Source of the DNA: Micromonospora sp. WMMA1947
GTDB lineage: Bacteria > Actinomycetota > Actinomycetes > Mycobacteriales > Micromonosporaceae
Reading direction: 5' to 3'
NCBI RefSeq assembly: GCF_027497355.1
Contig: NZ_CP114909.1
Location: 5,723,001-5,787,000, forward strand
Length of the DNA stretch: 64,000 nucleotides
Below are positions 42,570 through 64,000 of the stretch, in pieces. The notes beneath the pieces were generated by a model. It did no database searches. It saw nothing but the letters and a program-made list of their open reading frames with translations, and was not told the DNA's origin. The stretch's first letter is position 1. Each line of letters opens with the position of its first letter. The translations under genes and the position numbers were made by a program.

Positions 42570-43727
42570 TCACCCGCTCGAACGCATGGCGGCGCTCGGT
42601 GCCGGGGTCAGGTCGGCGATCAGCGCATCCAGGCGGGCCTCCTCGTATACACCGTCAGCGTCCGTGAGCCATTCGATGGCACCGGGGAGGGAGAGCATTT
42701 CGGTGAGGAACCGACGGCCGGCGTCGTCCCTGTCTGCAGTTACCAGCAGCCGCACGCCGGCGCCAGCCAGGCCGCGCAGCAGGGTCCACGCCGCCGACGA
42801 TGGCCGACCGTAGATACACACCAGGGGCAGGCAGGATCGGCCGAGCTGCTCGGCAGCGGCTTCCACTATCGCAGGGTTCTCGCAGACCCGGACCACGTCC
42901 ACGTCCGGGCAGGGCGTCCAGTCGCCGCGCAAAGATCGGCTGGTCAACCACACCGGCTCGCCGCACCCTGCGGCCGCGACCGCAATCGTCGCCGCCGGTG
43001 CCGATCCGGTGAGCGGAAGGTTGAGGACGAGGACGGTGGCGGACACTACGTCGCAGCTAATCCCGTGCCCGGCCCACACTTGCCGCCACCGGGCTGCGCC
43101 GAGCGCCGTGTCGGCGGCAGCAGCGGCGTCGGCGGGTTGGGCGGTCGCGGCGGCGAGCAAGCGGGCGGCGATCCGGCCGAGATCGGTGTCGCGGTCCAAA
43201 CGGTGCGGGTCGGCGAACAGGCTGTTCGCTACTTCTGCCAGGGGCCGGCCTGCGCCGGGCAGGGTCTGCCACAGCCGTGCCACGTCAGCAGCCCGGCTGG
43301 TGGCCAAATCCGGGTTGGGGCGTTCGAGCCACCGGCGGGTCCGGGCCAGGTCCACGGCGTGCGTGGGCAGCCCGGCGTTGGCCAGGGTCGTGTATGCGGA
43401 TTCGACGGTGGCGGCTGCCTGCGCGGCGGCGTGCTCCCGGCGGCCGCGGACGTCGACGACCGGGCCACCGGTGCGGGTCAGCAGGTCCAGCAGGTCGTCA
43501 CCGGCGCGAGTCAGGGCGACCCGCAGCTTGCCGAGGGTGATCGGACGGCTGGACGTTTCCCAGTCGAGGCCGAGGATTCGACCGACTTGCGCCCGTTCGG
43601 GCTGGCTCAGGTTCACGCGGACGGTTACCCCGGCGCCGGTGCGCTGTTCCTCCAGCAGCTTCCGGACCGCCTCTAGAACCTTCTGTGGGCCGGCCTGGGC
43701 CGCCCATCGATCCATTGCTGCGGTCAC
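42570..43727 (-). CDS. jetD: Wadjet protein JetD (DUF2399, Toprim-fold nuclease)
   Basis: A 385-residue protein matching the TIGR02679/DUF2399 family. In Wadjet, JetD is the nuclease that cuts plasmid DNA extruded by the JetABC complex. The C-terminal Toprim acids are in place: Glu283 in VCENPAIVEAA and Asp332/Asp334 in LLVTADRDDAGRRF. The N-terminal part is mostly helical, with a winged-helix-like middle. The ATG at 43727 overlaps the jetC stop by four bases. It is the last gene of the operon, in the order jetA-jetB-jetC-jetD. Confidence 0.93.
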   Translation of the reverse strand: MTAAMDRWAAQAGPQKVLEAVRKLLEEQRTGAGVTVRVNLSQPERAQVGRILGLDWETSSRPITLGKLRVALTRAGDDLLDLLTRTGGPVVDVRGRREHAAAQAAATVESAYTTLANAGLPTHAVDLARTRRWLERPNPDLATSRAADVARLWQTLPGAGRPLAEVANSLFADPHRLDRDTDLGRIAARLLAAATAQPADAAAAADTALGAARWRQVWAGHGISCDVVSATVLVLNLPLTGSAPAATIAVAAAGCGEPVWLTSRSLRGDWTPCPDVDVVRVCENPAIVEAAAEQLGRSCLPLVCIYGRPSSAAWTLLRGLAGAGVRLLVTADRDDAGRRFLTEMLSLPGAIEWLTDADGVYEEARLDALIADLTPAPSAAMRSSG

Positions 43728-48091: not shown

Positions 48092-49254
48092 CGGGTCGGC
48101 TCCGTGGTGTCGATGAGGGTGACGTCAGGGTCGCGATATCGGCCTGCGGCTGGGGATAACGTCCACGACTGGTCAGGGCCGATGCGCAGCAGGCCAAGCT
48201 CGGTCAGGATCGTCTCCGCATCGGTTCGGACCCTGCCCGGTAGCGATTTCTGGTCCTTGGACATGTACTCGCCGCGCCAGCCGATCAGGTCCTCGACGAC
48301 CTCGTCCACCTGGCCGTCGGTCAGCACAACTGTGCCGGACGGGGTGCGGATGCCATGGCGCCCAGCAAGGTCAGCCATCAACAGCGCCACCCAGTCGGCA
48401 GCTCGTGCACGCGGCCAGTCAGCCACGGTCGGCGACCGATCCGGGTCCTCGGGCAGAACAAGGACGAGACCCTCGGCGCGCGCCTCGACCGTTCCGCCGG
48501 TCATCTGCGCCAGGTCAGTGGTGCGCAGCCCGCGGGCTTTACGCAACGCGTCCGCATCCTGCTCGTCCAGTTCGGCGTACACGACGGCCGGGGTTTCTAG
48601 CAAAGCACGCAACTGCCGAACCGTACGGGTCGCTGCGACCTGCTCGGCGTCGGTATCCGGCGGTTGCACGGCAGCGGCGAGTACATCCGGGCTGGTCAAC
48701 AGCAGCAGCGCGTCCCGGTCAACCTCGTAGCCGGCACCAGGCCCGGACCCGTCCTCAGTCCAGTCCAAGAGCATCTTCTCGTCGCTGGTCCGGCGGCGCA
48801 GCACTCCCCACCCGGCGAGAAGGCCAGCCGCGTCACGCAGCAGCCGACGTTGCGATTTCTGCTCCGGGTCGTAGCCGGTGACGGTGACACCGGGCGCAGA
48901 GGTCAGGTCCCGGACCGTGTCGGAAAGCCGCTGCAACGTCACCGTGCCGGAGACTTCCTCGCAGCATGCGGCGAGACAGCATACGAGCGAAAGCAGCCTT
49001 CGGCCAGGTGCGTCCGCGGGGCGGGGTGGGGCCGTGACAGTCCCGGCGATTGGTACCCGTATAAGACGTACGGCCCGGCCGACCCGCTGGATCCGGTACC
49101 CGGCCCGGCGGGCGTGGTCGGTGATCTGCCGCTGATGGCGCAGGACGTGCCGGTGCAGGACCCGGTTCGTGGCTGGAGTGATCAGCGGCTGAGCGAGCAG
49201 GCCGAGGAACGCCTGCTGCGCCTCGCGCGCAGAAGCGGACGTGGATGTGTTCAC
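48088..49254 (-). CDS. jetB: Wadjet protein JetB (DUF2398, kite-like subunit)
   Basis: A 388-residue protein of the TIGR02678/DUF2398 family, which plays the part of the kite (MukE-like) subunit between the JetA kleisin and the JetC motor. Typical segments are RVGRAVRLIRVP near the N-terminus, LLSLVCCLAACCEEVSGTVT, and DEKMLLDWTEDG. Winged-helix-like parts lie in the centre and at the C-terminus (AETILTELGLLRIG). It overlaps jetA upstream and jetC downstream by four bases each, so the four proteins are probably made in fixed ratio. Confidence 0.92.
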   Translation of the reverse strand: MNTSTSASAREAQQAFLGLLAQPLITPATNRVLHRHVLRHQRQITDHARRAGYRIQRVGRAVRLIRVPIAGTVTAPPRPADAPGRRLLSLVCCLAACCEEVSGTVTLQRLSDTVRDLTSAPGVTVTGYDPEQKSQRRLLRDAAGLLAGWGVLRRRTSDEKMLLDWTEDGSGPGAGYEVDRDALLLLTSPDVLAAAVQPPDTDAEQVAATRTVRQLRALLETPAVVYAELDEQDADALRKARGLRTTDLAQMTGGTVEARAEGLVLVLPEDPDRSPTVADWPRARAADWVALLMADLAGRHGIRTPSGTVVLTDGQVDEVVEDLIGWRGEYMSKDQKSLPGRVRTDAETILTELGLLRIGPDQSWTLSPAAGRYRDPDVTLIDTTEPTR

Positions 49255-50816
49255 GGGCGACTCCCGGCCGGGGTGATGTGCAGGACGATGTCAGGGTGCA
49301 CGAGCCGGCCCTCCGGCGTGTGAACGATCGCGGCCGGCGCTCCGTCCAGAGGCGGCTCGACGCTCAGCAGCCAGCGGGCGTCGCCGGTGGTTGCCGATCG
49401 TCGACCTGCGGGGTCTGGCCGAGCGGCGGCGACCGTGCCGAGAAGGACCAGCAACAACTCCAGCTCGGCGGCGGTGAGGTCCTGCCACTGCGACAGCCGC
49501 TGCCCGGACCGAGCAAGGATCGCCGCCTCGGTGACAGCGGCCCGTGCGGCGGCCCGTGCAGCCCGTTCGCGAGCGGCGCGCTTTGCACTGGTCCGGTCGG
49601 GAATCCGGGCCGCGGTGCCGGTCGTTGCTTTCGGACCCTGTTTGCGCAGGCGCGCTTCGACTGGAACCGGATCGGCATCCCAGAACGAGACTGCGCCGGG
49701 GTTGCCCGCCGGTGGGTCACCGGCACCGGGGAGATGCCGAGCGGAGAACAGACCGGTCGCGGCGCACCACAAGCTCCAGGCGGCGTTGTCGTCCGAGGCC
49801 GATTCCAGGCGGGTAGCCAAGTCGATGAGCTCGGCGCGACGGGATACGTGCCCCCCAACTGCTGCCAAGGTTCGCTGCCCGCGCAGCAGCGGCCCGATCG
49901 TGTCGCGCATCTGCCGACGCAGCTTGCGGGCCTGGCAGTCCGGTCCGTCGAACCAGCGACGCAAGGTCTCCAGGGTGCGCACGTGGGTGTCAACGAGCGC
50001 CTCGACCGCTGGCTCGTCTGCATTCGCGCCAAGGGTATGTACGGCGATGCGCCGCCAGACGGATACTGGCAACAGCGCGAGATTCGCGGCAAGGACGGTG
50101 ATCGCCTCGGAGTGCGTGTCGATACCAGCGCCCCACATGTCTACATAGCGACGCAGGGTCTCCTGCACAGTGGTGATTTTCTCCGGTGTGGGCGCGCCGG
50201 CCAGCGCACCAGCGAGTCGCGCCTGCCAACCGGCGGCAGCTTTGACCATCGACTGGTGCGTTGTTGCGATCACCGACCAGGCAGCAGCCGCACCGGCCGG
50301 ATCCGTCTCGGCACGCTCACACAGTAGAGAAAGGTTAGCCGTCAGAATCCCGGGCGCGAGAGTAGCGGCGGCCGCTGCGGCGGTGTCGTCGCCGAGGGAG
50401 GTGATCGCCCGGTGCAGTTCGGCGACGGTCTCGGTCAGCTGGTACCGGTCCCGGTCGAGAACAAACTCCGCGTCCCGGACCGCCTTATCCTGGAAACGAT
50501 AGACAACACCCCATTGTTCGAGACGGCCCATCCGGTCCTTTAGCCTGAACGTCGGGTCGTCGAGTAGAGCCGGGTCGACACCCAGCACTTGCAGCTTGCG
50601 ACGCAGCAGCCCGGGCAGTTCGGCGGCCGCCACTCCGGTAAGGGTGTGCTCCTGCTCGGCGAGCAGGACATCGACAATCAGCCGGTACTGGGCCGAGAAA
50701 CGGCTCGTCAGATAGCTGGCCTGCAGCAACCCACCGGGTAGACCGGCCAGCTGCCACAGATCCGGGCCGTCGGCGGGCCGTTCCTCGTCCTCATTGGGTT
50801 CTGCGCCGGGCCGCAC
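49251..50816 (-). CDS. jetA: Wadjet protein JetA (DUF2397, kleisin-like subunit)
   Basis: A 521-residue protein of the TIGR02677/DUF2397 family, the kleisin-type subunit of Wadjet. It starts with YLTSRFSAQYRLIVDVLLAE, a helix-rich winged-helix region, and continues with long helices (residues about 130-330) and DGPDCQARKLRRQMRDTIGP, ending with a variable domain (SVEPPLDGAPAAIVHTPEGR). The GTG at 50814-50816 follows AAGGAG with six bases between. It is the first gene of the operon. Upstream is a 480-base gap and then the HEPN/ATPase pair on the same strand. Confidence 0.92.
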   Translation of the reverse strand: MRPGAEPNEDEERPADGPDLWQLAGLPGGLLQASYLTSRFSAQYRLIVDVLLAEQEHTLTGVAAAELPGLLRRKLQVLGVDPALLDDPTFRLKDRMGRLEQWGVVYRFQDKAVRDAEFVLDRDRYQLTETVAELHRAITSLGDDTAAAAAATLAPGILTANLSLLCERAETDPAGAAAAWSVIATTHQSMVKAAAGWQARLAGALAGAPTPEKITTVQETLRRYVDMWGAGIDTHSEAITVLAANLALLPVSVWRRIAVHTLGANADEPAVEALVDTHVRTLETLRRWFDGPDCQARKLRRQMRDTIGPLLRGQRTLAAVGGHVSRRAELIDLATRLESASDDNAAWSLWCAATGLFSARHLPGAGDPPAGNPGAVSFWDADPVPVEARLRKQGPKATTGTAARIPDRTSAKRAARERAARAAARAAVTEAAILARSGQRLSQWQDLTAAELELLLVLLGTVAAARPDPAGRRSATTGDARWLLSVEPPLDGAPAAIVHTPEGRLVHPDIVLHITPAGSRP

Positions 50817-51298: not shown

Positions 51299-51715
51299 TC
51301 AATCGTGGTCATCGGATCCCCGTTCGTGCCCAACTCGCGCCGCAGCGAGGTCACTGATGACCGTTGCCACCATCTCCCGCAGTCGGCGCAGTTCTCCCGC
51401 AGTGAGACCAAGCTCGTAGCAGTGGTGGTGGCCAGCGCGGGACAGCGCCGACCAGGCGTATCCAGCCCGGGCGGCGATGGACCGGCCGGCGTAGCGGTCG
51501 AGGATCAGGAATTGCGGCGAGCGGGCGCGCATCGGTAACACCTCGGGGTGGCAGCGCCACCAGTAGTCGTCCATAGCGGCCTCGAGTGCGAGCCGAAGGA
51601 GCCAGGCGCACGCTCGCGGCCAGGCGCCGCGGGTGCCTCGTACGACGCTGGACAGCAACTGGTCGGCAGCTTCCAGGCAGCTCTCCGGGACAGCCACGAT
51701 CGGGCCGGCGGTCAT
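51299..51715 (-). CDS. Small helical protein with HEPN-like RxxxxH motif
   Basis: A 138-residue, apparently all-helical protein. The helix ACAWLLRLALEAAMDDYWWR is followed, after a loop, by AARAGYAWSALSRAGHHHCY. There RAGHHH (93-98) fits the RxxxxH motif of HEPN ribonucleases, and similar SRAxHHHAYEL motifs occur in actinobacterial proteins of unknown function as I recall. It starts inside the end of the ATPase gene (four-base overlap), so the two form a unit. If HEPN, it could be an RNA-cutting effector switched by the ATPase. That is an inference; no close characterised relative is recognised. Confidence 0.6.
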   Translation of the reverse strand: MTAGPIVAVPESCLEAADQLLSSVVRGTRGAWPRACAWLLRLALEAAMDDYWWRCHPEVLPMRARSPQFLILDRYAGRSIAARAGYAWSALSRAGHHHCYELGLTAGELRRLREMVATVISDLAAARVGHERGSDDHD

Positions 51716-54174
51716 CGCAAATGCTCCGCGAGTCGGCGCGCGTCTCGCACCAGCACATCGAGGTCGAACGTGCCCGGTCCGTGCACACCCTGCTTGCAGG
51801 CCTGGAACGCATCACCGGCCCAACCACCGAAGCGGTTGATTCGGCCGAGCACATCCTTACCGCGGTGCAGATCGCCGAAGAGCGCCAGTGCCGTCACCTG
51901 GTTGAGCGTCAGTGCCTTCTCGATGAGTTCCTCCACGTCGCCGTGGCGTTCGCCGCGCGCGATCCGCTCCCGCCGGATCCGCTCATGGCAGGCGGCCTCA
52001 AGAGCTGAGCGGCAGAACCCGGAGACCAGGGGGTAGCGGGCGTTGTCGGCCAGTCCCTCGGCTTTGAGGATCGCGGTGGCGTCGTTGAGGTACCGCTCGA
52101 CCGGGTCGCTGTTCTTCCGGATTTCCACCACCGATTCGTCCCGCCGGGTGACCGCCCAGATGGTGGCCTCGATGCGCAACCGGCGTACCGCCTCGGGCAG
52201 CCGGTTGTCGTGGGTGAAGACCACGACCTGCCGGGTCTCCGCCAGGCTGGCCAGCACCTGCGCCAGGCCGTCGACCTTCGACGGGTCCATGCTCTGGACC
52301 GGGTCGTCGATGATGACGAACCGGAACGGGCTGTCGTCGGCGCAGGCACGAGGCAGGAACACCGACAGACCGAGAGCCTGGAGCTCGCCCTGGCTCATGA
52401 CCGCCATGGCGGAGGTGGTGGTGCCGTCGACCTTGGCGGGGAAGGAGATCTTACGGCGGGTGTTGGTGCCGTCGAGGCGCATCCCGCTTAGTTCGACGTT
52501 GCTCTCCTGACGCAGCTCGTCCCAGATTTCCTGGGACCGCTGAGCAAACGGTTGGAACCGCTGGTCGCGCAGCGCGCTGATCGCGCTCTTCAACCAGTCC
52601 CGGGCGGCGTTGACGCGCTTGAGCTTCGCCTCGTTCTCGGCGGCTGCCCGGGCCCGGACCAGCCAGTCCTCCAGAGCGACGGCGTGCTCACGCCAGGCGT
52701 CGTGGCGGTGCCGGAGCCAAGCGTTCGCCGCCTCCTGCAACTCTATGAACGCCTCGAGCAGCGGCCGATAGGTCGCCTGAAGGTCTCCGGCGATCTGGTC
52801 GTCTGAGAGTTGGTCGGTAGCAGAGTGGAGCTCATCCGCCCGTGAGCGGAACCGCTTCACCACGTCAGCCTGGTCGAGGGCGCCAGCCAACATCTCCAAA
52901 TCGTCGGTGCTGATCCGTCGATCGAGGTCGAGCAGCCTCGCGACCCGGGCCCGGGCGTCCTGAAGCCGTCGGTGCCCCTCCTCCACGGCGACGGCGTCGC
53001 GCTGAAGCTTCTCGAGCGTGTCGCCAGCGTGAGTGCGCCAGTCGACGTCCAGGGTCCCCGAGCCACAGACGGGGCAAGGGCCGTCACCGTGCTCGTCGTG
53101 GAAGGTGACGGCCATGCGGAGAAGCTGGGCCGCCTGGTCTGCCGTGCCGGCCCGGGTGGCGGAGAGGTCAGCGACCTGTGCTGCCGCAGCCATCAGCTCA
53201 TTCGACACCTCGTCTGCGTAGGCCACGTCTGGAAGCGCTACGGCGACCAGGCGGCGGGCCGCGACCGCGACCGGGTCGCTGACGTCGCTGCCGGCGTCGG
53301 CAAGCAGCTGGTCGAGTGCATCGAGGTCGGGAGCCCGTTTCGCGAGGAGCGCGAGCGCTGTCTGGGCCCGCGGGTCGTCGACACCGGTGAGTGCGGCACG
53401 GAGCGCGTCGCGCGCCGTCCTGACGACGGCGATCTGATCACTCAGATCCTTGCGGATCCGCATCAGCCGCTTGTCGGCGTCGATGATCGGGTCCATGCCG
53501 AGGATCGGGGCCAGCGCGTCGAAGAGCCCGCTGGGCGTGGAGGTGACGAGCCGAGCGAGGTCACTCGCGGTGAGGAACGGCCGGTAGACCTCGAGCGGTT
53601 GTTGCCATCCAAGCTCGGCCGTCTCCCCATAGCGGTTGCCGTCATCGGCCAGGATGTTGCTGCCGCCCTGGTGTGCCTCCGTGTGGTCATCGCGCCACGA
53701 GCGGCGTACCCGGATGGGTTTCGCGGCTCCATCGGCGCGCAGCAGCACCTCGATCTCGCACGGCGACCCGCAGTGCAGGTTTCGCCAGCCGTCCTTGAAG
53801 ACGCTGTTGCGGTCGACCCAGCGCGCACTGTCGCCGGTCAGGGCCAGCTCAGCGGCCTCCGCGTAGCTCGACTTGCCCGAGCCGTTTCGACCCACGACGA
53901 GGGTGAGCCCAGCGTGCGGCTGCAGCCGGAGGCTCTGCTGTGGACCGACACCTCGGAAGCCTGCAACGGTGATCGACTCAAGATAGAGCGGCTGTGGACG
54001 CGGTCGCGTCGACGGGTCCCGGGTCGGCAGTTCGACGGAATCTCCGCCGAGGACGGCGGCAAGCTGCTCGTCCCCGACGTACGCGGCGAGCACAAGATCT
54101 ACGAGGTCGTCGGGGACGCTGTCCTCGGCCAACCGGTCGAAAACCTGGTCAAGTAGCGACTGGTCCGGGGCCAT
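51712..54174 (-). CDS. Rad50/RecN-like ATPase with zinc-hook motif
   Basis: An 820-residue ABC-type ATPase. After a 60-residue helical start comes the Rad50-type beta strand LESITVAGFRGVG and Walker A GRNGSGKS (95-102). Two coiled-coil arms flank a CPVC zinc-hook motif (367-370). The signature is MSQGELQALGLSVF (593-606), with Walker B FVIIDDPVQSMD (619-630) and a switch His in VVFTHDNR. The last 120 residues are helical and could contact the small partner protein. This plan is that of RloC-like anticodon-nuclease ATPases, but the nuclease part seems to be a separate gene. It is divergent from the large plus-strand operon. Confidence 0.85.
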   Translation of the reverse strand: MAPDQSLLDQVFDRLAEDSVPDDLVDLVLAAYVGDEQLAAVLGGDSVELPTRDPSTRPRPQPLYLESITVAGFRGVGPQQSLRLQPHAGLTLVVGRNGSGKSSYAEAAELALTGDSARWVDRNSVFKDGWRNLHCGSPCEIEVLLRADGAAKPIRVRRSWRDDHTEAHQGGSNILADDGNRYGETAELGWQQPLEVYRPFLTASDLARLVTSTPSGLFDALAPILGMDPIIDADKRLMRIRKDLSDQIAVVRTARDALRAALTGVDDPRAQTALALLAKRAPDLDALDQLLADAGSDVSDPVAVAARRLVAVALPDVAYADEVSNELMAAAAQVADLSATRAGTADQAAQLLRMAVTFHDEHGDGPCPVCGSGTLDVDWRTHAGDTLEKLQRDAVAVEEGHRRLQDARARVARLLDLDRRISTDDLEMLAGALDQADVVKRFRSRADELHSATDQLSDDQIAGDLQATYRPLLEAFIELQEAANAWLRHRHDAWREHAVALEDWLVRARAAAENEAKLKRVNAARDWLKSAISALRDQRFQPFAQRSQEIWDELRQESNVELSGMRLDGTNTRRKISFPAKVDGTTTSAMAVMSQGELQALGLSVFLPRACADDSPFRFVIIDDPVQSMDPSKVDGLAQVLASLAETRQVVVFTHDNRLPEAVRRLRIEATIWAVTRRDESVVEIRKNSDPVERYLNDATAILKAEGLADNARYPLVSGFCRSALEAACHERIRRERIARGERHGDVEELIEKALTLNQVTALALFGDLHRGKDVLGRINRFGGWAGDAFQACKQGVHGPGTFDLDVLVRDARRLAEHLR

Positions 54175-54191: not shown

Positions 54192-54260
54192 GCCCGACGG
54201 TAAGTATTGTTGCCTACGCCAACAACCTGCCCGACGGGTGATTGCTGGAAAACACTGGAA
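54192..54260. promoter_or_regulatory. Divergent control region with nested repeats
   Basis: The space between the ATPase (minus strand) and the coiled-coil gene (plus strand) contains a perfect inverted repeat TTGTTG-seven bases-CAACAA (54207-54225). It is flanked by direct repeats GCCCGACGG (54192-54200 and 54229-54237). Just before the plus-strand start is a tandem CTGGAA pair with ten-base period (54245-54250, 54255-54260). Such layering suggests that one regulator controls both units. Confidence 0.5.
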
Positions 54261-54268
54261 CTTGTACC

Positions 54269-55078
54269 ATGTTCCTCGTGGCCGAGTCCATAGAAAACCT
54301 CGAGCGTCGGATTGAAGACCTGCGAACAGCGGTCCGCCGGGCAGTGATCGCGCGCGACACCGCCCGAGCGCACGCGATGCGGGCTGAGCTGCGAGCCGCC
54401 GAACGTGAATGGGAGAAGGCGCTCACGGACCTCGCCGACGCGGCAGAGGACGACACCTCCACCGCGAAGCACGACGCGCCGCTGGTGCCGGTACGCGAGC
54501 AGGTGCACCACGCGCTCACCCTGCTGTCGGTGCCGGCTGCACCCAAGCTGATCGCCGAAGTACACGCCGCCTTCTACGGCGCCGGAGCCACTGGGATCGC
54601 GGCGGGCAAGCTCACCCACCTGCGCCGCGACGAAGAGCGATCCTTCCGCACGGCGCGGCATTCCCGGCCGTACTACCTCTGCTCCGCGCTGACCGCTGAG
54701 CACCTGGCGCCGGCCCGCGGCCTGCTGGCCGTATCCACCTGGCCACTCGATCGGCGCATCATCGGGCCGCTGAGCCCGCGTGTCGACTTTCTGACAGGTG
54801 CCATCAAAGTGGCGGAACGGGCGACCAGGATGTCTGAGCAAGATCCGGGCGTCAGCAGGCTTCTCTGGAGATTTGCCACCACGATCCCAGGGGCAGCCGA
54901 ACCGCATGGAGGGGTAGACGCAGCCACGGTCATGGAGGCGGCTCAGGCCGAGCTCGACGTGCACGCGGCGGCCGACCAGGCGCAGCGGAAGGCTGCGGCG
55001 GAACGCGCCCGCCGGCAGATGGACGAGGCCGAGCAGCTTTTCGGCAGCAAGCTGCGTGTACTCAGGGGGACGGCATGA
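54269..55078 (+). CDS. Coiled-coil protein of unknown function, first gene of defence-like operon
   Basis: A 269-residue protein. Residues 5-60 form a clear coiled coil (ENLERRIEDLRTAVRRAVIA). The middle (REQVHHALTLLSVPAAPKLI, GIAAGKLTHLRRDEERSF) looks like a winged helix, and the end is again helical and charged (AERARRQMDEAEQLFGSKL). I used the ATG at 54269; a TTG at 54242 is in frame but has no ribosome site, so the message may be leaderless. It overlaps the nuclease gene by four bases. Its layout would suit a regulator or an assembly scaffold. No family is recognised. Confidence 0.65.
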   Translation: MFLVAESIENLERRIEDLRTAVRRAVIARDTARAHAMRAELRAAEREWEKALTDLADAAEDDTSTAKHDAPLVPVREQVHHALTLLSVPAAPKLIAEVHAAFYGAGATGIAAGKLTHLRRDEERSFRTARHSRPYYLCSALTAEHLAPARGLLAVSTWPLDRRIIGPLSPRVDFLTGAIKVAERATRMSEQDPGVSRLLWRFATTIPGAAEPHGGVDAATVMEAAQAELDVHAAADQAQRKAAAERARRQMDEAEQLFGSKLRVLRGTA

Positions 55079-56205
55079 CCAACGTCGGCCAGCGACTGGC
55101 CGCGATCCGAGGTGGCGGTACCGCGAGCCGCCACAATGCTCGAACCATCGCCGCTCTGACCACTAACCCGGGTTGCGCCCGCAGGGCGGTGCTCGACTGC
55201 GCCGGCGTCGACAAGCAGCGCCTGGCCGCCTACATCGACTACCCGGCCCGCTTCGGTCAGTCGCAGTTCGCGATCACCCGGGGCAACGCCTTCGAGGCCC
55301 AGGTCAAGGCCAACGGTTGCGCCCAACTGCTGCAGTTGCTACGGGAGCGCCTCGACCTGGAGATTCCCGAGGTCTCCTACGACGACTTGGAGTCGGTCGC
55401 GGGCCGCGAGAGCCAGGACGTTCGGTACGCCCGGTCACGTGCCCTGCTCACCCGGGCGGCGGCCCAGGTCGACGGAGCTGGCACGCTCTTTGACCACCCG
55501 CTGCTTCGACTCGAGGTAGCCGGCCAGCAGGCCTACCTGGAACCGGACCTGATCGCGTTCCAGCACGATGGGCAGTTCCACGTGGTGGAGATCAAGTCTT
55601 TCGCGGTCATCGACGGCCAGGGCGATCCGGGCAAGGTGGCCGCCGCGGCGATCCAGGCCGCCGTCTACGTGCTGGCCATGCGTGAGCTGCTCGGCGAGGC
55701 CGGGTACGACCCCCAGGTCGTCTCGCACGATGTCGTGCTGGTCTGCCCCCGCGACTTCTCCAATCAGCCGATGGCGGTCCGGGTCGACGTTCGGAAGCAG
55801 CTCGCCGTGTTGCGCCGTCAGCTGTCCCGGATGACCCGGATCGATGCGCTCCTGGCCGACCTCCCGGCAACGCTCAGCTTCGATTTCGCTCCCGACGAGC
55901 GTGGGGTGCCCACCAGGTCGCCGGCTTCGCTGGTCGCTGCCCTCGAAGCCGTCGAGGCGCGGTACTCGCCGGAGTGCCTGGCGAGCTGCGAGCTTGCGTA
56001 CTTCTGCCGGCACGAGGCTCGCGGGTGCACGGCCGCGCTTGGCAAGTCTGCGCGGGATGAGGTAGGCGGTATCGAGCGCGTGGAGACGGCGCTGGCCATC
56101 GCACGCAGCCAGCTTGCCCCTGCTGAGGACCAGCAGGAGGCCGCCGAGCTGCTGCGGGCTGCAGCACGGCTGCGCGCCGAGCTGATGAGCGGGGTGGCCA
56201 AATGA
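55075..56205 (+). CDS. Cas4/RecB-like PD-(D/E)XK nuclease with cysteine cluster
   Basis: A 376-residue nuclease. The RecB-type motifs are in order: RGNAFEAQVK (about 69-78), Asp158 in AYLEPDLIAF, Glu172-x-Lys174 in FHVVEIKSF, and Gln194...Tyr198 in AIQAAVYVL. Cysteines at 34 and 41 (NPGCARRAVLDC) and at 301, 305, 311 and 318 (ECLASCELAYFCRHEARGC) match the layout of the iron-sulfur cluster in Cas4 and AddB-like enzymes. It should act as an exonuclease or end-processing enzyme. It overlaps both neighbours by four bases. No cas genes or CRISPR array are present, so it is not an adaptation-type Cas4 here. Confidence 0.85.
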   Translation: MTNVGQRLAAIRGGGTASRHNARTIAALTTNPGCARRAVLDCAGVDKQRLAAYIDYPARFGQSQFAITRGNAFEAQVKANGCAQLLQLLRERLDLEIPEVSYDDLESVAGRESQDVRYARSRALLTRAAAQVDGAGTLFDHPLLRLEVAGQQAYLEPDLIAFQHDGQFHVVEIKSFAVIDGQGDPGKVAAAAIQAAVYVLAMRELLGEAGYDPQVVSHDVVLVCPRDFSNQPMAVRVDVRKQLAVLRRQLSRMTRIDALLADLPATLSFDFAPDERGVPTRSPASLVAALEAVEARYSPECLASCELAYFCRHEARGCTAALGKSARDEVGGIERVETALAIARSQLAPAEDQQEAAELLRAAARLRAELMSGVAK

Positions 56206-57710
56206 CCACCCTGACCACCCTGGCGCGGGCCGAGGCGGTGGTCGAGGGCATCGCCAAGCGGATCACCCTCGTCCGTCACGTGCACATAGCTGACCGGCCC
56301 TTGGTCTTCATTCCGCTCACCATGGCGGGCGAGGCCAATGCGCCGCTCGCGGCAATGGTCGGTGACGACCCGGAAGACCCGACGTTGCTGATCGTGCCGC
56401 AGCCGCGTAACCGCGACCAGCGGTTCGCCTTCGCGGCCGACCTGGCGGGCGTCGTGGTTCCCTACATCAACAACTTCCACGGGACCGTCGAAGCGACGAA
56501 TAAGGGCAAGGCCACCCGCCACCGCTACGCGGACGCGCCGCAGCTGCTCGTACCAAACCCGGGCGGGGTCGGTTTCACCCGGCTCTTCGGGCGGTCCACG
56601 CGCTTCCGCCGTACCGACGGCGACTACCCGGTGGACCCGTCGGTGCCTCTGCTCGGCCGCTGGCTGACCTACCTGGCCGAGCGGGCCGAGCATCCGGGCT
56701 CCTCGTCCCTGGTAGCGATGACCCAGGCACTCTCGATGCACTGGGCCACCGGGCAGAGCCCGCTCGAGGACGCGCAGCTGGCCGCGCTTCTCGCCTGGAT
56801 CACGCCCCCGCCGAGTATGACGGGCACCGAGGCTGCCGCCGCGGCCGAGGACCCGGTGAACTGGCCGCCGGCGGGTCCCGCCACGGACCCCACCTTCGAC
56901 AACGAGGAACTGGCCCCGGCGATGGCCGCGTACGACCGGGCGGTGACCACGGGTTCGCAGGTATCCCGGTGCCGAGTCAAGCTGGAGAACCTGCTGCGGT
57001 CTCAGCTCGAGCCGACCTGGCGACTGATGTGGCAGGCGATCTCTCTGCTGCGGGAGCTGCCCGCCGGCGCGCACGTGGCCAAGCGATGGACGGAAGACCG
57101 GGATGCGTTCACGAATTTCACGGCGTATCACGAACAAGGCGGGATCCCGCAGCCCCGCCGCGACGGAGCGGTCGCGGCGGCCAGGAAGCTACACCACATG
57201 GAGCGGGCGCTGACCTCGTACGACGTGCAACGCGCCTACGACGATCCGATGGTGATGGCCGAGTACCGGCTCACCGGAGAAGCATTCGTTGGCGAGGTGA
57301 CGGCAGCCCACCCCACGCGGGTGGACAGCAGCGGGAAGAAGCGGGTGTTGCGCCCCTGGATCGCCGTCACCACTGCCGACAGGGTTCTCGTTGCACCGGG
57401 CACCGCCTTGTTCTCCCCCGAACAACCCGAGCAGCAGAAGGCTCGAGTGATGTCCGTGGCGCCGAAGGACGACGGTACGACCGCGGTAGTGCTGGAACTG
57501 ACCGGCGGGATGGGGCGCGCGCTCACCCCGGCCCCCGGCACCGTGCCAGAAGTGGGACGGCGCATCTGCTACACCACGCTCAGCGACTCCTTTATGCCGT
57601 CGGGCACCTTCCCTTCTCGGGACGAGACGCCGTGGACCCACGGCGGGCCGCCAACGCCGTACGAGGACACCTCCCCGACGGCCGAGGACGCCCACGAGGA
57701 GTGGTCTTGA
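56202..57710 (+). CDS. Unrecognised 502-residue protein of defence-like operon
   Basis: I recognise no family. The N-terminal 110 residues have alternating strands (VFIPLTMAGEANAPLAAMVG, TLLIVPQPRNRDQRFAFAAD), residues 130-320 are mostly helical, and the C-terminal part is beta-rich (RPWIAVTTADRVLVAPGTAL, TAVVLELTGGMGRALTPAPG). It ends in an acidic, proline-rich tail. No nuclease or ATPase motif is seen. It is clamped between the nuclease (four-base overlap) and the DUF262 gene (64 bases), so it is likely a structural or recognition subunit of the same system. Because it has no clear paralogue in memory, it is a good marker for finding relatives of the operon. Confidence 0.7.
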   Translation: MTTLTTLARAEAVVEGIAKRITLVRHVHIADRPLVFIPLTMAGEANAPLAAMVGDDPEDPTLLIVPQPRNRDQRFAFAADLAGVVVPYINNFHGTVEATNKGKATRHRYADAPQLLVPNPGGVGFTRLFGRSTRFRRTDGDYPVDPSVPLLGRWLTYLAERAEHPGSSSLVAMTQALSMHWATGQSPLEDAQLAALLAWITPPPSMTGTEAAAAAEDPVNWPPAGPATDPTFDNEELAPAMAAYDRAVTTGSQVSRCRVKLENLLRSQLEPTWRLMWQAISLLRELPAGAHVAKRWTEDRDAFTNFTAYHEQGGIPQPRRDGAVAAARKLHHMERALTSYDVQRAYDDPMVMAEYRLTGEAFVGEVTAAHPTRVDSSGKKRVLRPWIAVTTADRVLVAPGTALFSPEQPEQQKARVMSVAPKDDGTTAVVLELTGGMGRALTPAPGTVPEVGRRICYTTLSDSFMPSGTFPSRDETPWTHGGPPTPYEDTSPTAEDAHEEWS

Positions 57711-57774
57711 TCTACCCTGACCCGCCGGCACCAGCATTCGATGATCAAGCGTTCAGATCCGTGGGGGAGCTGAC

Positions 57775-60099
57775 ATGAGCAAGTTGGGCACGATCCTCGA
57801 TCAGATTGACTCCGGCACCGTGCTGCTCCCGGAGTTCCAGCGCGGCTACGTGTGGAACCGGGATCAGGTACGCGGTCTGATGCGCTCGCTCTACCTCGGC
57901 TTTCCCGTCGGCGGGCTGCTGGTGTGGGAGACGGAAGCCGACCATGGCTCCGTGCGAGGCAACACCCACGTCGGTGGCGGGGTGAAGCTGTTGCTACTCG
58001 ACGGGCAACAGCGGATCACCTCCCTGTATGGCGTGGTCCGCGGCAAGCCGCCGGCGTTCTTCGAGGGTGACCCCGCCGCCTTCACCGGCCTGCGGTTCAA
58101 CGTCGAGGAGGAGACCTTCGAGTTCTATGCACCGGCGAAGATGAAAGACGACCCCACTTGGGTCGACGTGACCGAACTCTTCGTCGACGGCATCGAACCG
58201 CAGATCGGCAACCTGACGGCGCACCCAGACACCATGCCGCACTTCGCGACGTACATGGGTCGGCTCATCCGGCTGCGGAACATCCTCGAACGCGAGTTCC
58301 ACCAGGAGAAGATCACCGGCGCGGACAAGGGCGTCGAGGTCGTCGTCGACATCTTCAACCGGGTCAACTCGGGCGGTACCAAGCTCTCCAAGGGCGACCT
58401 GGCGTTGGCCAAGATCTGCGCCGACTGGCCCGAGGCCCGCTCCACCATGCGCAAGCACCTGGGCACCTGGTCGACCGCCGGCTTTCAGTTCAACCTCGAC
58501 TGGTTGCTGCGGAACGTCAACGCTGTCGCGACCGGGCGTGCCCAGTTCGAATCGCTCGAGGGGGTCGGCTCGGCCGACTTCGCCCAGGCGTTGACCTCCA
58601 GCGAGCGCTACATCAGCGGATTCCTCGACGTGATCTCGGGTCGGCTCGGCCTCGATCACGACCGCGTGTTGATGGGCCGCTACGCCTTCCCCGTGGTCTC
58701 CCGCTTCCTGCACCTCAACGGCGGCTCGTTCGCCGACGCGACACAGCGTGACCGGATGCTCTTCTGGTACATCCACGCCGCGTTGTGGGGACGCTTCGCC
58801 GGCTCGACCGAGACGATCCTGACCCAGGACTACGAGACGGTCGCCCGCGGTGGCATAGACGGCCTAATCACCAGCTTGACCCGCTGGCGGGGCGGCAACC
58901 TGGTGATCGACGGTCAGGACTTCGAAGGCTTTGGTCGGGGCTCCCGGTTCTACCCGCTGCTCTACCTGCTCACCCGGGTGCTCGGCGCCCGTGACTTCGG
59001 CTCCGGGCTGGAGCTCAAGAGCGAGATGTTGGGGCACCTCACCTCGCTTCAGGTGCACCACATCTTCCCCAAGGCGCTGCTCTACAAGCACGGCTACGGC
59101 CGGTCCGAGGTCAACGCGGTCGCCAACTTCTCCTTCCTCACCCAGCAGACCAACCTGGCGATCGGCAAGCGGGCGCCCGAGGACTACTTCGCCGAGACCC
59201 AGCAGAAGCACCCGGGTGCGCTGGAATCCCAGTGGATCCCGACCGACCCGCAGCTCTGGCGGCCCGACCGCTACCTGGACTTCCTTGCCGCCCGACGCGA
59301 GCTGCTGGCCAACGCGGCCAACGGCTTCCTCGCCAACCTCCGGGACGGCACGAAGCAGGCCGTCGAGCCGCTACGGCCGGTGGTCGTTGTCGCCGAGGAG
59401 GAGACCGACGACGTCCGTGCCGGGCAGGTGAAGGCCCTCGTCGAAGAGCTGGTCAACGCGGGCTGCGCCGAGCCCGCCCTCGACAGCGAGATCGCGGATC
59501 CCGCCACCGGTCGGGTGTTGGGGGTGGCGGAGGCTTACTGGCCGGACGGGCTGCAGCCCGGGCTGGGGAACCCGGTCGTGCTGGAACTGGACGCCAACCC
59601 GGAGCTCGCTCGGATGGAGGAGCTCGGCTACGAGGTCTTCACCTCGGTCGACGCTCTTCGCGGTTACGTGGCCCGCCGCAATGAGCAGGCGGCGGGACTC
59701 AGCGACGCCGACGGTGAGCCCCTCGGTGAGGAGTCGGACACCGAAGCCGCGACGGCCGTCGTGCCGACGCAGCCCGGCGGCGACCAGGGCACGGTCGCGG
59801 ACTTCGAGCGGGCGATGCGCGGGGTGTACGAGGCGGCGCGGCGCGAGGCCGGTTACAACGCCACTTACTTCCTCGGCATGATCGCCGAGCACGGTGGTCT
59901 GGCCACCGCGAAGAAGCTGCTCGCGAGCCCGGTTGTGTCCGACGGGTTCGCGGCGCTGTGGGAGCGCGGGCGACTCGACCTGACGGTGGAGGCGCTCGTG
60001 GTGAAGCCCGAGTACGAGTCCCTCTTCACCCCGGACGAGCTCGACATCGCCCGTCACCGGCTGCGACAGTTCGACTACGACGTCGCCGCGCGGCGGTGA
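57775..60099 (+). CDS. DUF262/HNH protein (GmrSD-like) with extra C-terminal domain
   Basis: A 774-residue protein. The N-terminal DUF262 (ParB-like, nucleotide-using) domain shows LLPEFQRGYVWNRDQVRGLM and LLLLDGQQRITSLYG (76-86 for the DGQQRxT motif). A DUF1524-type HNH follows with SLQVHHIFPKALLY (His428-His429) and NFSFLTQQTNLAIGKRAPED. Proteins of this kind include GmrSD, which cuts modified phage DNA, and SspE. After about residue 660 a further domain (NATYFLGMIAEHGGLATAKK, FAALWERGRLDLTVEALVV) is of a type I recall at the ends of several actinobacterial nucleases. GGGGGAG precedes the ATG. The helicase gene follows five bases after its stop. Confidence 0.88.
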   Translation: MSKLGTILDQIDSGTVLLPEFQRGYVWNRDQVRGLMRSLYLGFPVGGLLVWETEADHGSVRGNTHVGGGVKLLLLDGQQRITSLYGVVRGKPPAFFEGDPAAFTGLRFNVEEETFEFYAPAKMKDDPTWVDVTELFVDGIEPQIGNLTAHPDTMPHFATYMGRLIRLRNILEREFHQEKITGADKGVEVVVDIFNRVNSGGTKLSKGDLALAKICADWPEARSTMRKHLGTWSTAGFQFNLDWLLRNVNAVATGRAQFESLEGVGSADFAQALTSSERYISGFLDVISGRLGLDHDRVLMGRYAFPVVSRFLHLNGGSFADATQRDRMLFWYIHAALWGRFAGSTETILTQDYETVARGGIDGLITSLTRWRGGNLVIDGQDFEGFGRGSRFYPLLYLLTRVLGARDFGSGLELKSEMLGHLTSLQVHHIFPKALLYKHGYGRSEVNAVANFSFLTQQTNLAIGKRAPEDYFAETQQKHPGALESQWIPTDPQLWRPDRYLDFLAARRELLANAANGFLANLRDGTKQAVEPLRPVVVVAEEETDDVRAGQVKALVEELVNAGCAEPALDSEIADPATGRVLGVAEAYWPDGLQPGLGNPVVLELDANPELARMEELGYEVFTSVDALRGYVARRNEQAAGLSDADGEPLGEESDTEAATAVVPTQPGGDQGTVADFERAMRGVYEAARREAGYNATYFLGMIAEHGGLATAKKLLASPVVSDGFAALWERGRLDLTVEALVVKPEYESLFTPDELDIARHRLRQFDYDVAARR

Positions 60100-60104
60100 G
60101 CACC

Positions 60105-61451
60105 ATGAGCACTCTGCTCCTGCCGAACGCGCCGGCCGACCCACCGTCGGTCCAGGCCGAACGGGTCATCACCGATGTGCTGGCGGACCTGCAATCCGGC
60201 CTGCACCGTGGTGTCGTGGTCGACTCGCCTCCCGGGGCCGGCAAGTCGACCCTCGTCGTCCGCGCCGCCGTCGAGCTGGCCCGCGCCGGCGAGCCGCTGA
60301 TCGTGATCGCGCAGACTAATGAGCAGGTCGACGATCTGATCGACCGGTTGGCGCAGAAAGCACCGGAACTGCCCATCGGCCGGCTTTCGGCGACCGACTA
60401 CACGGCCACCGATCGGATCAAGCGATACCCCACCGTCCGGGTGGCCGCCAAGGTTGCCGACCTCGGTGGTCCGTCAGTCATCATCGGTACGGCGGCCAAG
60501 TGGGCGCTGGTGTCCGACGGCTGCTGGCCCTGGGCCATCGTTGACGAGGCTTACCAGATGCGGTCGGACGCTCTCCTGCGCGTGGCCGGCCGGTTCGAGC
60601 GGGCGCTGTTCGTCGGCGACCCCGGCCAGCTCGACCCGTTCTCCACCGTCGAAACCGAGCGGTGGACCGGACTGACCTGGGATCCGATGCTGTCTGCGGT
60701 GGCGGCCCTGCTACGGCACAACCCTGACCTGCCGGTGCACCGGCTGCCGGTGTCGTGGCGACTACCTCCCTCGGCGGCGCCGGTGGTGGCTGAGGCCTTC
60801 TATCCCTTCACCGGGTTCCAGGCCGGCACAGACCCTGGCGAGCGGTCGCTGTCCTTCACCACTTCGGGGTTCGGACACGGGCCGATCGATGCGGCGGTGG
60901 AAACGGCTGCGGCGACGGGGTGGGGGCTGTACGAGCTCCCGGCCCGGCACACGCTCCGTACCGATGCGGAGGCGGTCGCGGCGTGCGCAGCTCTGGCACG
61001 TCGTGTACTGGAACGGGGAGCGGTCGCCATCTCGGAACGGGAACCGGGTGGAGCGGCGGTCACCGCGGATCGAATCGCGGTCGGCGCTGCCCATCGCGAC
61101 CAGGTCGCTGCGATCCGCGCGGAGCTTGGCGCGGCCCGGGCAGACGTCACCGTCGACACCGCCAATCGGCTGCAGGGCCGGGAGTACGACGTGACGATCG
61201 TGCTGCATCCGCTGTCGGGACGGCGGGACGCCACCGCCTTCCACCTGGAATCGGGGCGGCTCTGCGTGTTGACGTCTCGGCACCGCCAAGCCTGCATCAT
61301 GGTGGCTCGAGCGGGGATCGCCGAGCTGCTCGATGCACATCCGTCGAGCGAGCCGGTTCACCTCAACGTGCCGGTCAAGTTCCCCGACGGCTGGGAGGCG
61401 AACCAAGCCGTGCTCGCGCACCTGACGGGGCACCGCATCGCCGGCCACTGA
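60105..61451 (+). CDS. SF1 helicase-like ATPase (Upf1/DNA2-like core)
   Basis: A 448-residue protein with the superfamily 1 motif set. Motif I is VVDSPPGAGKSTL (41-49 for the loop), motif II is AIVDEAYQM (DEAY 147-150), motif III is LFVGDPGQLDPF, motif V is DTANRLQGREYDVTIVLHPL, and motif VI is VLTSRHRQACIMVA. It is compact, with little beyond the two RecA folds. The ATG at 60105 is five bases after the DUF262 stop, so it is probably translated by re-initiation. With a Cas4-like nuclease in the same operon it recalls the DNA2/AddAB helicase-nuclease logic, here as separate subunits. Confidence 0.85.
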   Translation: MSTLLLPNAPADPPSVQAERVITDVLADLQSGLHRGVVVDSPPGAGKSTLVVRAAVELARAGEPLIVIAQTNEQVDDLIDRLAQKAPELPIGRLSATDYTATDRIKRYPTVRVAAKVADLGGPSVIIGTAAKWALVSDGCWPWAIVDEAYQMRSDALLRVAGRFERALFVGDPGQLDPFSTVETERWTGLTWDPMLSAVAALLRHNPDLPVHRLPVSWRLPPSAAPVVAEAFYPFTGFQAGTDPGERSLSFTTSGFGHGPIDAAVETAAATGWGLYELPARHTLRTDAEAVAACAALARRVLERGAVAISEREPGGAAVTADRIAVGAAHRDQVAAIRAELGAARADVTVDTANRLQGREYDVTIVLHPLSGRRDATAFHLESGRLCVLTSRHRQACIMVARAGIAELLDAHPSSEPVHLNVPVKFPDGWEANQAVLAHLTGHRIAGH

Positions 61452-61505
61452 TCCCGCTTCCAGCTACCGCCTGCTTTTGAACCAGCATCCACCGAAGGTG
61501 CCAAC

Positions 61506-64000
61506 ATGCCAGACCCTTCCACGCTCACCCCGGACCTCAGCAATCCGATCATCAACTCGCCGTATCAACCGCCGGAGCACCACTTCGAGATCGGTGAACA
61601 CGGCCCCACCGGCAAGCTCCTCCCCGGTCGCCGACCGAGCGAGTCCTTTATCCCGGTTCCAGTCAGCAAAAAGGGACGCAAGGGCGCCGTTCAGCAGGCC
61701 TTCGACTTCGACGTCACCGGCGAGCGGCGTGAGTCGAACTCTCTCATCAATGACATCCGGGTTGCAGTCGAGCGCTGGCGCGCGAACAACTGGAACGGCG
61801 TCACGCCGTACACGAGGAAGCTGCTGGCGCACTGGGCACCGGGCCCACATCGTGACGACGCCGTGCTGTTCTGCCAGCGTGAGGCGGTCGAGACCGCCAT
61901 CTTCCTTGCGGAGGTCGCCGGGCGCCACGGCACGGCCGACTACCGGCGACGCCTGGAGCCGGAGAACCAGCTACACAACGACGGGCTGCCGCGGATCGGG
62001 CTGAAGATGGCAACCGGGTCCGGCAAGACGGTGGTCATGGCGATGCTGATCGCCTGGCAGACCATCAACAAGGTGATGACGCCACGGGACGCACGTTTCG
62101 CCAAGCGCTTCCTCGTTGTGGCGCCGGGAGTGACCATCCGCGACCGCCTCGGCGTCCTCCATCCGGAACGGGACGACAACTACTACCGCGCGCGGGACCT
62201 CATCCCATCGGACCTGTGGGAGCCGCTGCTTCAGGCTCAGGTCCAGGTCGTCAACTACCACACCTTCCTGCCCCGGGATGCCAAGGAGATCCAGGGCGTC
62301 TCCAGCAACACCCGCAAGCTGCTGCGGGGTGGACGCCCGGACATGCCCGATGCCTTCCGGGAGACCCCGGAGATGGTCGCCGACCGGGTGCTGCGGCCCT
62401 TCGGCTCCACCGAGGGTGGCATCGTCGTACTCAACGACGAGGCCCACCACTGCTATCAGGACAAGCTCCTGGAGCACCCCGACGACGAGGCGGACAGGGA
62501 AGACGAGGATCGCAACCGTGAGGCCCGCGTATGGTTCCGCGGCCTGTTGGATCTGAGCCGCAAGACGAAGGTCAAGTCGGTGTTTGACCTCTCGGCGACG
62601 CCGTACTACCTGAAGGGCTCTGGCTACAACGAGGGCTACATCTTTCCCTGGGTCGTCAGCGACTTCTCGCTGATGGACGCCATCGAATCCGGCATCGTCA
62701 AGATTCCGCGAGTACCCGTGGACGACGACGCAGCCACCCGGCAGCCGGTGTACCTCAACCTCTGGGACAACATCAAGCCACCGCTGCCCAAGCGTCGGAG
62801 CACCAAGGGCGTGGATTTCGGGCCGCAGGGCTGGGTGATGCCGGAGACGTTGGAAGGGGCACTCCGCAGCCTATACCGCAGCTACGAACAGAACCACCGA
62901 CGGTACGAGGAAACGCTGGCTGCGGCCGGTGAACCTCCGCCCGTGCTGATCGTGGTCTGCCCCAACACGATCGTCTCCAAGTGGGTGTTCGACTGGATCG
63001 CCGGCCGCGAGGTCGAGCACCCCGACGGATCGACTCGCCTCGCCGCAGGCAACCTGCCGCTGCTGAGCAATGTCGATGACGGCGTTTGGACACCTCGTCA
63101 GCGGACAATCCTGGTCGACTCTGTAGCGCTGGAATCCGGCGGCCCGCTCGGCCCAGAGTTCCGCAAGGACGCCGCTCGCGAGATCGAGGCGTTCAAGCAG
63201 GCATATCGGCTGCGGAACCCCGGCGCCGACGTCGACTCCCTCACCGACGGCGACCTGCTGCGCGAGGCGATGAACACCATCGGCAAGAAGGGCAAGCTGG
63301 GAGAGCACATCCGCTGCGTCGTGTCCGTCGCGATGCTTACGGAGGGCTGGGACGCCAACACCGTCACCCACATCCTCGGCGTACGCCCCTTCCGCAGCCA
63401 ACTGCTCTGCGAACAGGTGGTCGGGCGCGGACTCCGCCGGCGCAGCTACGCGGTGAACGCCGAGGGCCGCTTCGAGCCGGAGTACGCGGAGGTGTACGGC
63501 GTCCCGTTCGCGTTCATCCCCAGCGACCGGGCCATGCCGAAGCCGAAGTTGACCCGGCCGGCGGTCGAGGTCCGCGCGCTGCCCGAACGGTCGCATCTCG
63601 CGATTCGCTTCCCGAAGCTGGACGGCTACCGCGTCGAGCTGCCCGATGAGACGCTGCACGCCGACTTCACGGCCGAGTCCCGCCTACACCTCGACCAGCG
63701 CGAGGTCGCCCTGTGGGTACAGAACCAGGGTGTGGTGGGCGCTGCCAGCGACGTCGACCTGGAGGACATCCGTCTCGCACGTCCCCAGCGCATCGCCTAT
63801 TCGATTGCGAAGCGGCTGATCGAAGAGGAGCGGTACTTCGCGGCACACGCGGGCGTCGAGCGACCCTGGCTGTTCCCCCAGCTGGTCGACATCTGCAAGC
63901 AGTGGTTGGAGGAGTGGGTCACGACCGACCCCGAAGTGACGAAGGGGCACCTGCTGCTGACGCAGGCGTGCGCCCGGGCTGCGGAGAAGGTCTACTCCTC
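61506..64000 (+). CDS. SF2 DEAD/DEAH helicase of type III restriction (Res) type, 3' end cut
   Basis: At least 831 residues of a large SF2 protein, still open at the window end. Walker A is LKMATGSGKTVVMAM (169-175 for the core) and motif II is VVLNDEAHHCYQD (311-314). Motif III-like SVFDLSATPYYLKGSGY, motif V-like VAMLTEGWDANTVTHILGVR and motif VI QLLCEQVVGRGLRRRSY complete the helicase. This resembles BPTD_3080-type restriction enzymes, in which a nuclease domain usually follows the helicase. A partner methyltransferase, if any, would lie beyond the window. It starts 54 bases after the SF1 gene and is likely in the same operon. Confidence 0.88.
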   Translation, partial: MPDPSTLTPDLSNPIINSPYQPPEHHFEIGEHGPTGKLLPGRRPSESFIPVPVSKKGRKGAVQQAFDFDVTGERRESNSLINDIRVAVERWRANNWNGVTPYTRKLLAHWAPGPHRDDAVLFCQREAVETAIFLAEVAGRHGTADYRRRLEPENQLHNDGLPRIGLKMATGSGKTVVMAMLIAWQTINKVMTPRDARFAKRFLVVAPGVTIRDRLGVLHPERDDNYYRARDLIPSDLWEPLLQAQVQVVNYHTFLPRDAKEIQGVSSNTRKLLRGGRPDMPDAFRETPEMVADRVLRPFGSTEGGIVVLNDEAHHCYQDKLLEHPDDEADREDEDRNREARVWFRGLLDLSRKTKVKSVFDLSATPYYLKGSGYNEGYIFPWVVSDFSLMDAIESGIVKIPRVPVDDDAATRQPVYLNLWDNIKPPLPKRRSTKGVDFGPQGWVMPETLEGALRSLYRSYEQNHRRYEETLAAAGEPPPVLIVVCPNTIVSKWVFDWIAGREVEHPDGSTRLAAGNLPLLSNVDDGVWTPRQRTILVDSVALESGGPLGPEFRKDAAREIEAFKQAYRLRNPGADVDSLTDGDLLREAMNTIGKKGKLGEHIRCVVSVAMLTEGWDANTVTHILGVRPFRSQLLCEQVVGRGLRRRSYAVNAEGRFEPEYAEVYGVPFAFIPSDRAMPKPKLTRPAVEVRALPERSHLAIRFPKLDGYRVELPDETLHADFTAESRLHLDQREVALWVQNQGVVGAASDVDLEDIRLARPQRIAYSIAKRLIEEERYFAAHAGVERPWLFPQLVDICKQWLEEWVTTDPEVTKGHLLLTQACARAAEKVYS

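Follow-up and report, generated by a model that had tools for sequence, protein, structure and literature searches.

A widespread four-gene cassette of Actinomycetota that may act as a split DNA2-like helicase-nuclease

The closest known system to the genes described here is Bad of Geobacillus stearothermophilus, a monomeric, single-chain bacterial DNA2-like helicase-nuclease with an iron-sulfur (Fe-S) cluster and a 5'-3' motor. The passages of the Bad paper used here call Bad-like proteins sporadic in bacteria and mention, for Mycobacteria and Rhodococcus, a second class of DNA2-like proteins (PMC7430649). We analyse a 64,000-nucleotide stretch of the Micromonospora sp. WMMA1947 genome (the window; positions 5723001-5787000 of a single contig of 6,311,079 bases, which is the whole genome), in which the genes A, B, C, and E belong to a cassette that is widespread in actinobacteria and apparently undescribed. 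Literature searches turned up no description of it. A sequence-only reading of the window had proposed one defence system of six consecutive plus-strand genes, A to F, joined by 4-base overlaps or gaps of at most 64 bases. The open reading frames (ORFs) and junctions are as claimed (A/B -4, B/C -4, C/D +64, D/E -4, and E/F +54 bases). In our interpretation, to which we give a probability of roughly 0.6, A-B-C-E is a four-gene core in which B, C, and E work like a DNA2-type helicase-nuclease split in three, in DNA2 domain order and fed by partner sensors.

Like Bad, the cassette pairs an iron-staple RecB-family nuclease carrying four cysteines with a superfamily 1B (SF1B) helicase. In Bad, a long middle region separates D150 of the nuclease from K815 of Walker A; in the cassette, it is C that separates D158 (in B) from K50 (in E). 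Unlike Bad, which those passages describe as one polypeptide, the cassette comprises three genes plus A, is widespread in Actinomycetota, and has SbcCD, Wadjet, or pPIWI-RE neighbours at some loci. The comparison with Bad is based on these descriptions (PMC7430649).

The cassette resembles eukaryotic DNA2 in its predicted order of nuclease, putative barrel/stalk, and motor, and DNA2 is the best PDB sequence match of E. The domain order of DNA2 is nuclease, barrel/stalk, and RecA1-RecA2. The setting is also similar: DNA2 pairs with MRN/MRX in end resection, and a frequent partner of the cassette, SbcCD, is the bacterial Mre11-Rad50. In contrast to eukaryotic DNA2, the parts are on separate genes, and a comparison of C with PDB sequences gave no match at an E value of 10. 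Formal membership of the DNA2 or Bad families is set aside, since the nuclease and the helicase are on separate genes; the cassette is proposed only to work like DNA2. AddAB and AdnAB also combine a RecB-family nuclease with an SF1 motor, and both are among the fold matches of B, but their motors are UvrD-like SF1A enzymes, whereas E is of the DNA2/SMUBP-2/UPF1 type.

The conserved unit

The locus set consists of 144 loci (L016-L158 plus the window), of which 84 are A-bearing, 60 are A-less, and 97 have C-E. A, B, C, and E occur all together in 81 of the 144, with or without D, so the association of the 502-residue C with the nuclease and the SF1 helicase that the sequence-only reading had singled out does recur. 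The architectures are A-B-C-E (77), B-C (44), B-C-E (16), A-B-C-D-E (3), A-B-C (3), and A-B-C-E-D (1). In the 78 loci in which all four genes are complete, each pair of gene distance matrices is correlated at r = 0.89-0.96, a correlation for part of which common vertical descent accounts; the largest r in 300 permutations per pair is 0.20. The sequence data show the module itself together with its motifs and surroundings, and they put the conserved set at four genes instead of six.

No PADLOC, Pfam, or NCBIfam model matches A, B, or C at 0.01, and C remains the unrecognised protein that it had been called. In two annotated plasmid records, the cassette genes are labelled merely as hypothetical proteins and AAA ATPases. 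Protein A carries two conserved blocks, LRRDEERSFR and STW...GPLSPRVD, and belongs to no known family. Weak, coiled-coil-like matches at its N-terminus point to a probable coiled coil there, in accordance with half of the earlier description of A; the winged helix-turn-helix-like half is unsupported.

Putative nuclease, motor, and scaffold

In an alignment of 36 sequences of B, residues C34, C301, C305, C311, D158, E172, K174, Q194, and Y198 are invariant, and G70 and E74 are nearly so. The window copy carries the four cysteines as well as E74, D158, E172, K174, Q194, and Y198. The second and third cysteines are separated by three residues, where a two-residue spacing is usual. The model of B (predicted local distance difference test, pLDDT, 88.7) gives two fold matches below 1e-3, with MGME1 on top (2.4e-4), followed by RecE, Cas4 SSO0001, Exo5, ACE1, and AdnAB; AddAB is also among the matches. 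Pfam DrmE_C reached one of 11 B members, at 0.061 only. By motifs and predicted fold, B is assigned as an iron-staple (four-cysteine, RecB-family) nuclease of the DNA2/Cas4/AddB kind, and the earlier identification as a PD-(D/E)XK nuclease with Fe-S-type cysteines holds despite the lack of a library match at 0.01.

Protein E presents Walker A from residue 44, DEAYQ, GDPGQLDPF, SWRLP, VDTANRLQG..., and SRHR. Pfam AAA_11 and AAA_12 are above cut-off, confirming the compact SF1 helicase seen earlier. The best PDB profile matches are DNA2 (2.2e-9), SMUBP-2 (4.2e-9), and UPF1 (1.9e-6). Since Walker A already begins at residue 44, there is no room for an N-terminal barrel, and E is assigned from its motifs as a compact SF1B motor of two RecA domains without its own barrel.

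The model of C (pLDDT 88.4) shows long helices at residues 254-357, followed by strands at 361-458. Its best Foldseek match is chain O of 8ram, a Sen1-Pol II entry (E = 1.4e-3, probability 1.00); we take this chain to be Sen1, an SF1B helicase. The predicted model gives partial support to C as a putative scaffold, whose stalk and beta-barrel would correspond to domain 1B of SF1B helicases. The gene order C then E is the domain order of these helicases. In a Streptomyces draft genome (G576), C and E lie in one 933-residue frame, and the C-E junction differs from those of two relatives by a gap of several bases, not one. Among the 144 loci there is no B-C fusion.

The nuclease motifs of B, the matches of E, the model of C, and the shared frame and order of C and E together lead us to read B-C-E as a split DNA2-like helicase-nuclease. 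In the mechanism proposed here, a DNA end would be made or held by a partner system that recognises DNA as foreign or abnormal. Candidate partners at other loci are SbcCD, Wadjet, or a pPIWI-RE island; in the window they are Z, which is Rad50-like, and the Wadjet close by. The module would then load at a junction of single-stranded and double-stranded DNA, unwind the DNA, and degrade or resect it, with B as the nuclease, C as the scaffold with the 1B-like stalk/barrel, E as the motor, and A as an accessory that may serve as loader or adaptor. From these features we infer that B, C, and E may form a complex and act as an enzyme of defined direction, and that the patchy copies probably serve in defence.

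Partner systems, distribution, and alternative explanations

In the 23 A-bearing Streptomyces, sbcD-sbcC lies divergently upstream of A in 12 (L127, L139-L142, L146, L147, L150, and L154-L157; in L141 only sbcD is detected), a pPIWI-RE island is the divergent neighbour in 10 (L123, L125, L143-L145, L148, L149, and L151-L153), and one, L158, has neither. The pPIWI_RE_X model matches 81 places in 74 of 295 Streptomyces genomes; 10 are near A, compared with about 0.017 expected by chance. DUF3375 (JetA1) is found in 11 of the 295, once near A. In other taxa, sbcD-sbcC comes after E and is co-directional with it (L029, L030, L032, L077, and L098). Type I or II Wadjet proteins are detected by PADLOC in L029, L030, L031, and L142 and annotated in L037 and L038, and Jet matches lie near A-B-C-E in 10 of the 84 A-bearing loci, the window included, and in none of the other 74. 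Matches to SbcCD, pPIWI, Z, or Jet occur in 37 of 84 A-bearing loci compared with 0 of 60 A-less loci, with probes chosen from the A-bearing loci. On the C tree, the minimum number of changes is three for the SbcCD label, one for the pPIWI label, and one for the Z group of the window, by a quick method and with long branches.

The cassette is distinct from the systems beside it. The pPIWI-RE three-gene island consists of REase, DinG, and pPIWI-RE; the main text of its description contains "SbcCD" 0 times, and its relevant passages hold no cassette like A-B-C-E (PMC3702460). Assignment to this system (PADLOC "Ppr") is rejected, because the cassette's own genes include no pPIWI_RE, REase, or Z-domain protein and E matches PprDinG with 17 bits. 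Wadjet is rejected as well: none of A, B, C, and E has a match among the Jet models at 0.01, and the type II Wadjet of the window is separate. Mokosh, with the gene set MkoA, MkoB, and MkoC, is also rejected; of A-F, the sole protein with a match is E (36 bits to MkoA, 30 bits to MkoC). So is DISARM, whose core is drmA, drmB, and drmC; no DISARM model matches A-F at 0.01.

The distribution combines common chromosomal copies with patchy ones. C is present in 32 of 61 relatives; 29 of these 32 are among the 37 congeneric genomes. At the level of the class, 58 of 296 genomes have it. In a scan of named genomes, 80 of at least 576 confirmed stretches were kept, and the titles of these 80 are all Actinomycetota. 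On the C tree, the B-C copies of Micromonospora fall into one clade (support 100; 21 of the 92 rows left after thinning), and they share synteny; among them is a second copy in this genome, at about 870059-871555. The seven core Streptomyces loci examined (L119-L122, L124, L130, and L138) are B-C-E without A, and a C-E query matches 278 of 295 Streptomyces at 1e-100 or better, among the matches listed mostly through E. In Actinomadura, Nonomuraea, and Streptosporangium, A-B-C-E has shared neighbours. In Streptomyces, A is patchy (23 of 295 genomes). In one core Streptomyces locus (L119:12044-13191), E is followed by a 122-residue ORF without a Pfam match and then by a Prim-Pol domain protein; both genes recur in six of the seven core loci.

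Several observations weigh against the split DNA2-like reading. The fold matches of B have low TM scores (0.17-0.30 by query, top 20), and none of its matches to PDB sequences is credible. The superposition of C on chain O of 8ram is weak (TM 0.14, root mean square deviation 8.4 Å over 164 columns), no Foldseek match of C falls under 1e-3, and the next matches are chains of HerA entries at 0.03-0.05, followed by a crAss phage protein. E is almost as near to SMUBP-2 as to DNA2, and C and E share a frame in just one of 97 C-E pairs, which comes from a draft genome. The partner contrast is post hoc, related strains are among the loci, the chance expectation covers pPIWI-RE alone among the partners, and 47 of the 84 A-bearing loci are without any of the four partner types. 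Finally, B-C or B-C-E relatives are common on chromosomes, and the Micromonospora genus copy is B-C without a detected E. The weakest links are the putative assignment of C, the lone shared C-E frame, and the predicted function.

The common chromosomal loci, together with the 47 A-bearing loci without partners, make it possible that the cassette is a housekeeping module for DNA repair or end resection, with its main function on the chromosome (B-C-E in Streptomyces, B-C in Micromonospora, and A-B-C-E in Streptosporangiales) and with patchy copies riding in defence-rich islands. The C and C-E counts given above and the shared synteny fit this explanation, as do the Prim-Pol gene downstream of E and the only annotated neighbours of two such loci, both with metabolic products (L084, a dehydrogenase; L016, an FAD-binding protein). 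However, A is patchy in Streptomyces, and in 22 of 23 genomes either SbcCD or pPIWI-RE is its divergent neighbour; pPIWI-RE, for which the background was counted, lies far above chance. We consider a mainly housekeeping role rather unlikely. The defence role that the sequence-only reading drew from context is retained in part: some copies do adjoin known defence systems, but the common B-C and B-C-E loci weaken a defence-only interpretation. A function at replicon ends or in transfer, in which SbcCD-linked copies process the ends of linear chromosomes or plasmids instead of invading DNA, is very unlikely. In single-contig Streptomyces, whose chromosomes are presumably linear, SbcCD-type copies are indeed near contig ends, at a distance of 4.7 kb in G438 and of 24 kb in G398 and G472, the latter two with mirrored copies at both ends; on a linear plasmid (L037), another copy is 11-13 kb from the terminus. 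However, the copy of G453 is 523 kb from the end, six pPIWI-type copies on contigs above 4 Mb are all at least 1.19 Mb from the end, and chromosome ends gather accessory genes of every kind.

The original proposal, a single new defence system of six genes, or of six and the methyltransferase gene G, with DUF262 and Res obligatory, is in our judgement highly improbable. In its favour are the tight gene spacing in the window, a Streptomyces locus (L125) with Res and Mod behind A-B-C-E (50% and 54% identity), and a DUF262 gene after E in L151. However, D occupies the C-E slot in only three of 97 C-E loci (the window, L039, and L040), and in L041 a RhuM gene (Pfam, 9e-110) fills this slot instead. 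F pairs with a methyltransferase; F-type Res or G-type Mod matches occur in three of 84 A-bearing loci, and in L039 the Res gene is apparently shrunk to a short piece. Behind E, other loci have Wadjet, SNF2 plus methyltransferase, HsdM-like genes (L040, judged by eye), or no screened gene. D is cargo of the C-E slot, outside the conserved unit, and D and F are changeable neighbours of the cassette.

Neighbouring genes and possible significance

Table 1 Features of the locus. Positions are those of the window unless preceded by L002.
Feature	Position	Strand	Description
Gene A	54269-55078	+	269 residues; alternative upstream TTG start at 54242 possible
Gene B	55075-56205	+	376 residues; RecB/Cas4-type PD-(D/E)XK nuclease (assigned)
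Gene C	56202-57710	+	502 residues; no family match in searched libraries
Gene D	57775-60099	+	774 residues; DUF262 (Pfam GmrSD_N) protein
Gene E	60096-61451	+	451 residues; compact SF1B helicase (assigned)
Gene F	61506->64000	+	BPTD_3080-family Res (SF2) restriction subunit; end at window-equivalent 64565, 1019 residues
Gene Z	51712-54174	-	820-residue Rad50/SMC-like ATPase with CPVC motif, divergently upstream of A
138-residue ORF	51299-51715	-	Adjoins Z; no Pfam match
jetABCD (JetA2-D2)	42570-50816	-	Type II Wadjet (PADLOC); context
Gene G	L002:3589-6273, past window end		894-residue type III methyltransferase after F
Gene H	L002:6283-9066, past window	opposite, convergent to G	UvrD helicase with C-terminal PD-(D/E)XK/Cas4-like nuclease

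D matches Pfam GmrSD_N with 88.6 bits, confirming it as a DUF262 protein, and carries DGQQR and HHIFP motifs. In GmrSD type IV restriction, GmrS (DUF262) is combined with GmrD (HNH); D shows GmrSD_N and HHIFP, and no C-terminal model matches it. Its PADLOC candidate matches are HEC-05 (120.8 bits) and PDC-M55C (68 bits). F, described before as Res-type SF2 and verified as such by Pfam, matches the BPTD_3080 restriction family with E = 6.1e-280 and PADLOC REase_III with only 19 bits. The methyltransferase that had been suspected beyond position 64000 is G (MTase_III, 856 bits), and F and G are assigned as a type III-like restriction-modification pair (Res plus Mod), separate from A, B, C, and E.

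On the other side of the cassette, a type II Wadjet is indeed nearby, but Z and the 138-residue ORF stand between it and A, so that "directly beside Wadjet" is true only loosely. This ORF accompanies Z in five loci (the window, L039, L040, L066, and L091). Elsewhere, a SNF2-type helicase and a methyltransferase (L144 and L149) or SNF2-NOV_C and DUF1156 (L123 and L153) lie downstream of E, possibly as unnamed restriction-modification or DISARM-like sets. Genes for ResIII-DUF3427-PLD helicase-nucleases (L041:4085-7165 and L044:14019-17147) are near the cassette in six of the 84 A-bearing and two of the 60 other loci.

We tentatively suggest, as an idea more doubtful than the split helicase-nuclease itself, that one such engine across Actinomycetota is the common downstream helicase-nuclease for Mre11-Rad50, Wadjet, Z, and pPIWI-RE, with chromosomal relatives in repair. 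If so, bacteria would have in this plug-in engine an analogue of the MRN-DNA2 pairing, and a PIWI and an SMC immune system would share one effector stage. If the split DNA2-like reading is right, the cassette would hint at the way in which SbcCD, Wadjet, and pPIWI-RE finish off their targets and would also offer a split DNA2 for biochemistry. A gene set of most sampled Streptomyces would then be, together with its patchy kin, a DNA2-type helicase-nuclease with interchangeable sensors, and it might partly account for the way in which actinomycetes resist incoming DNA.

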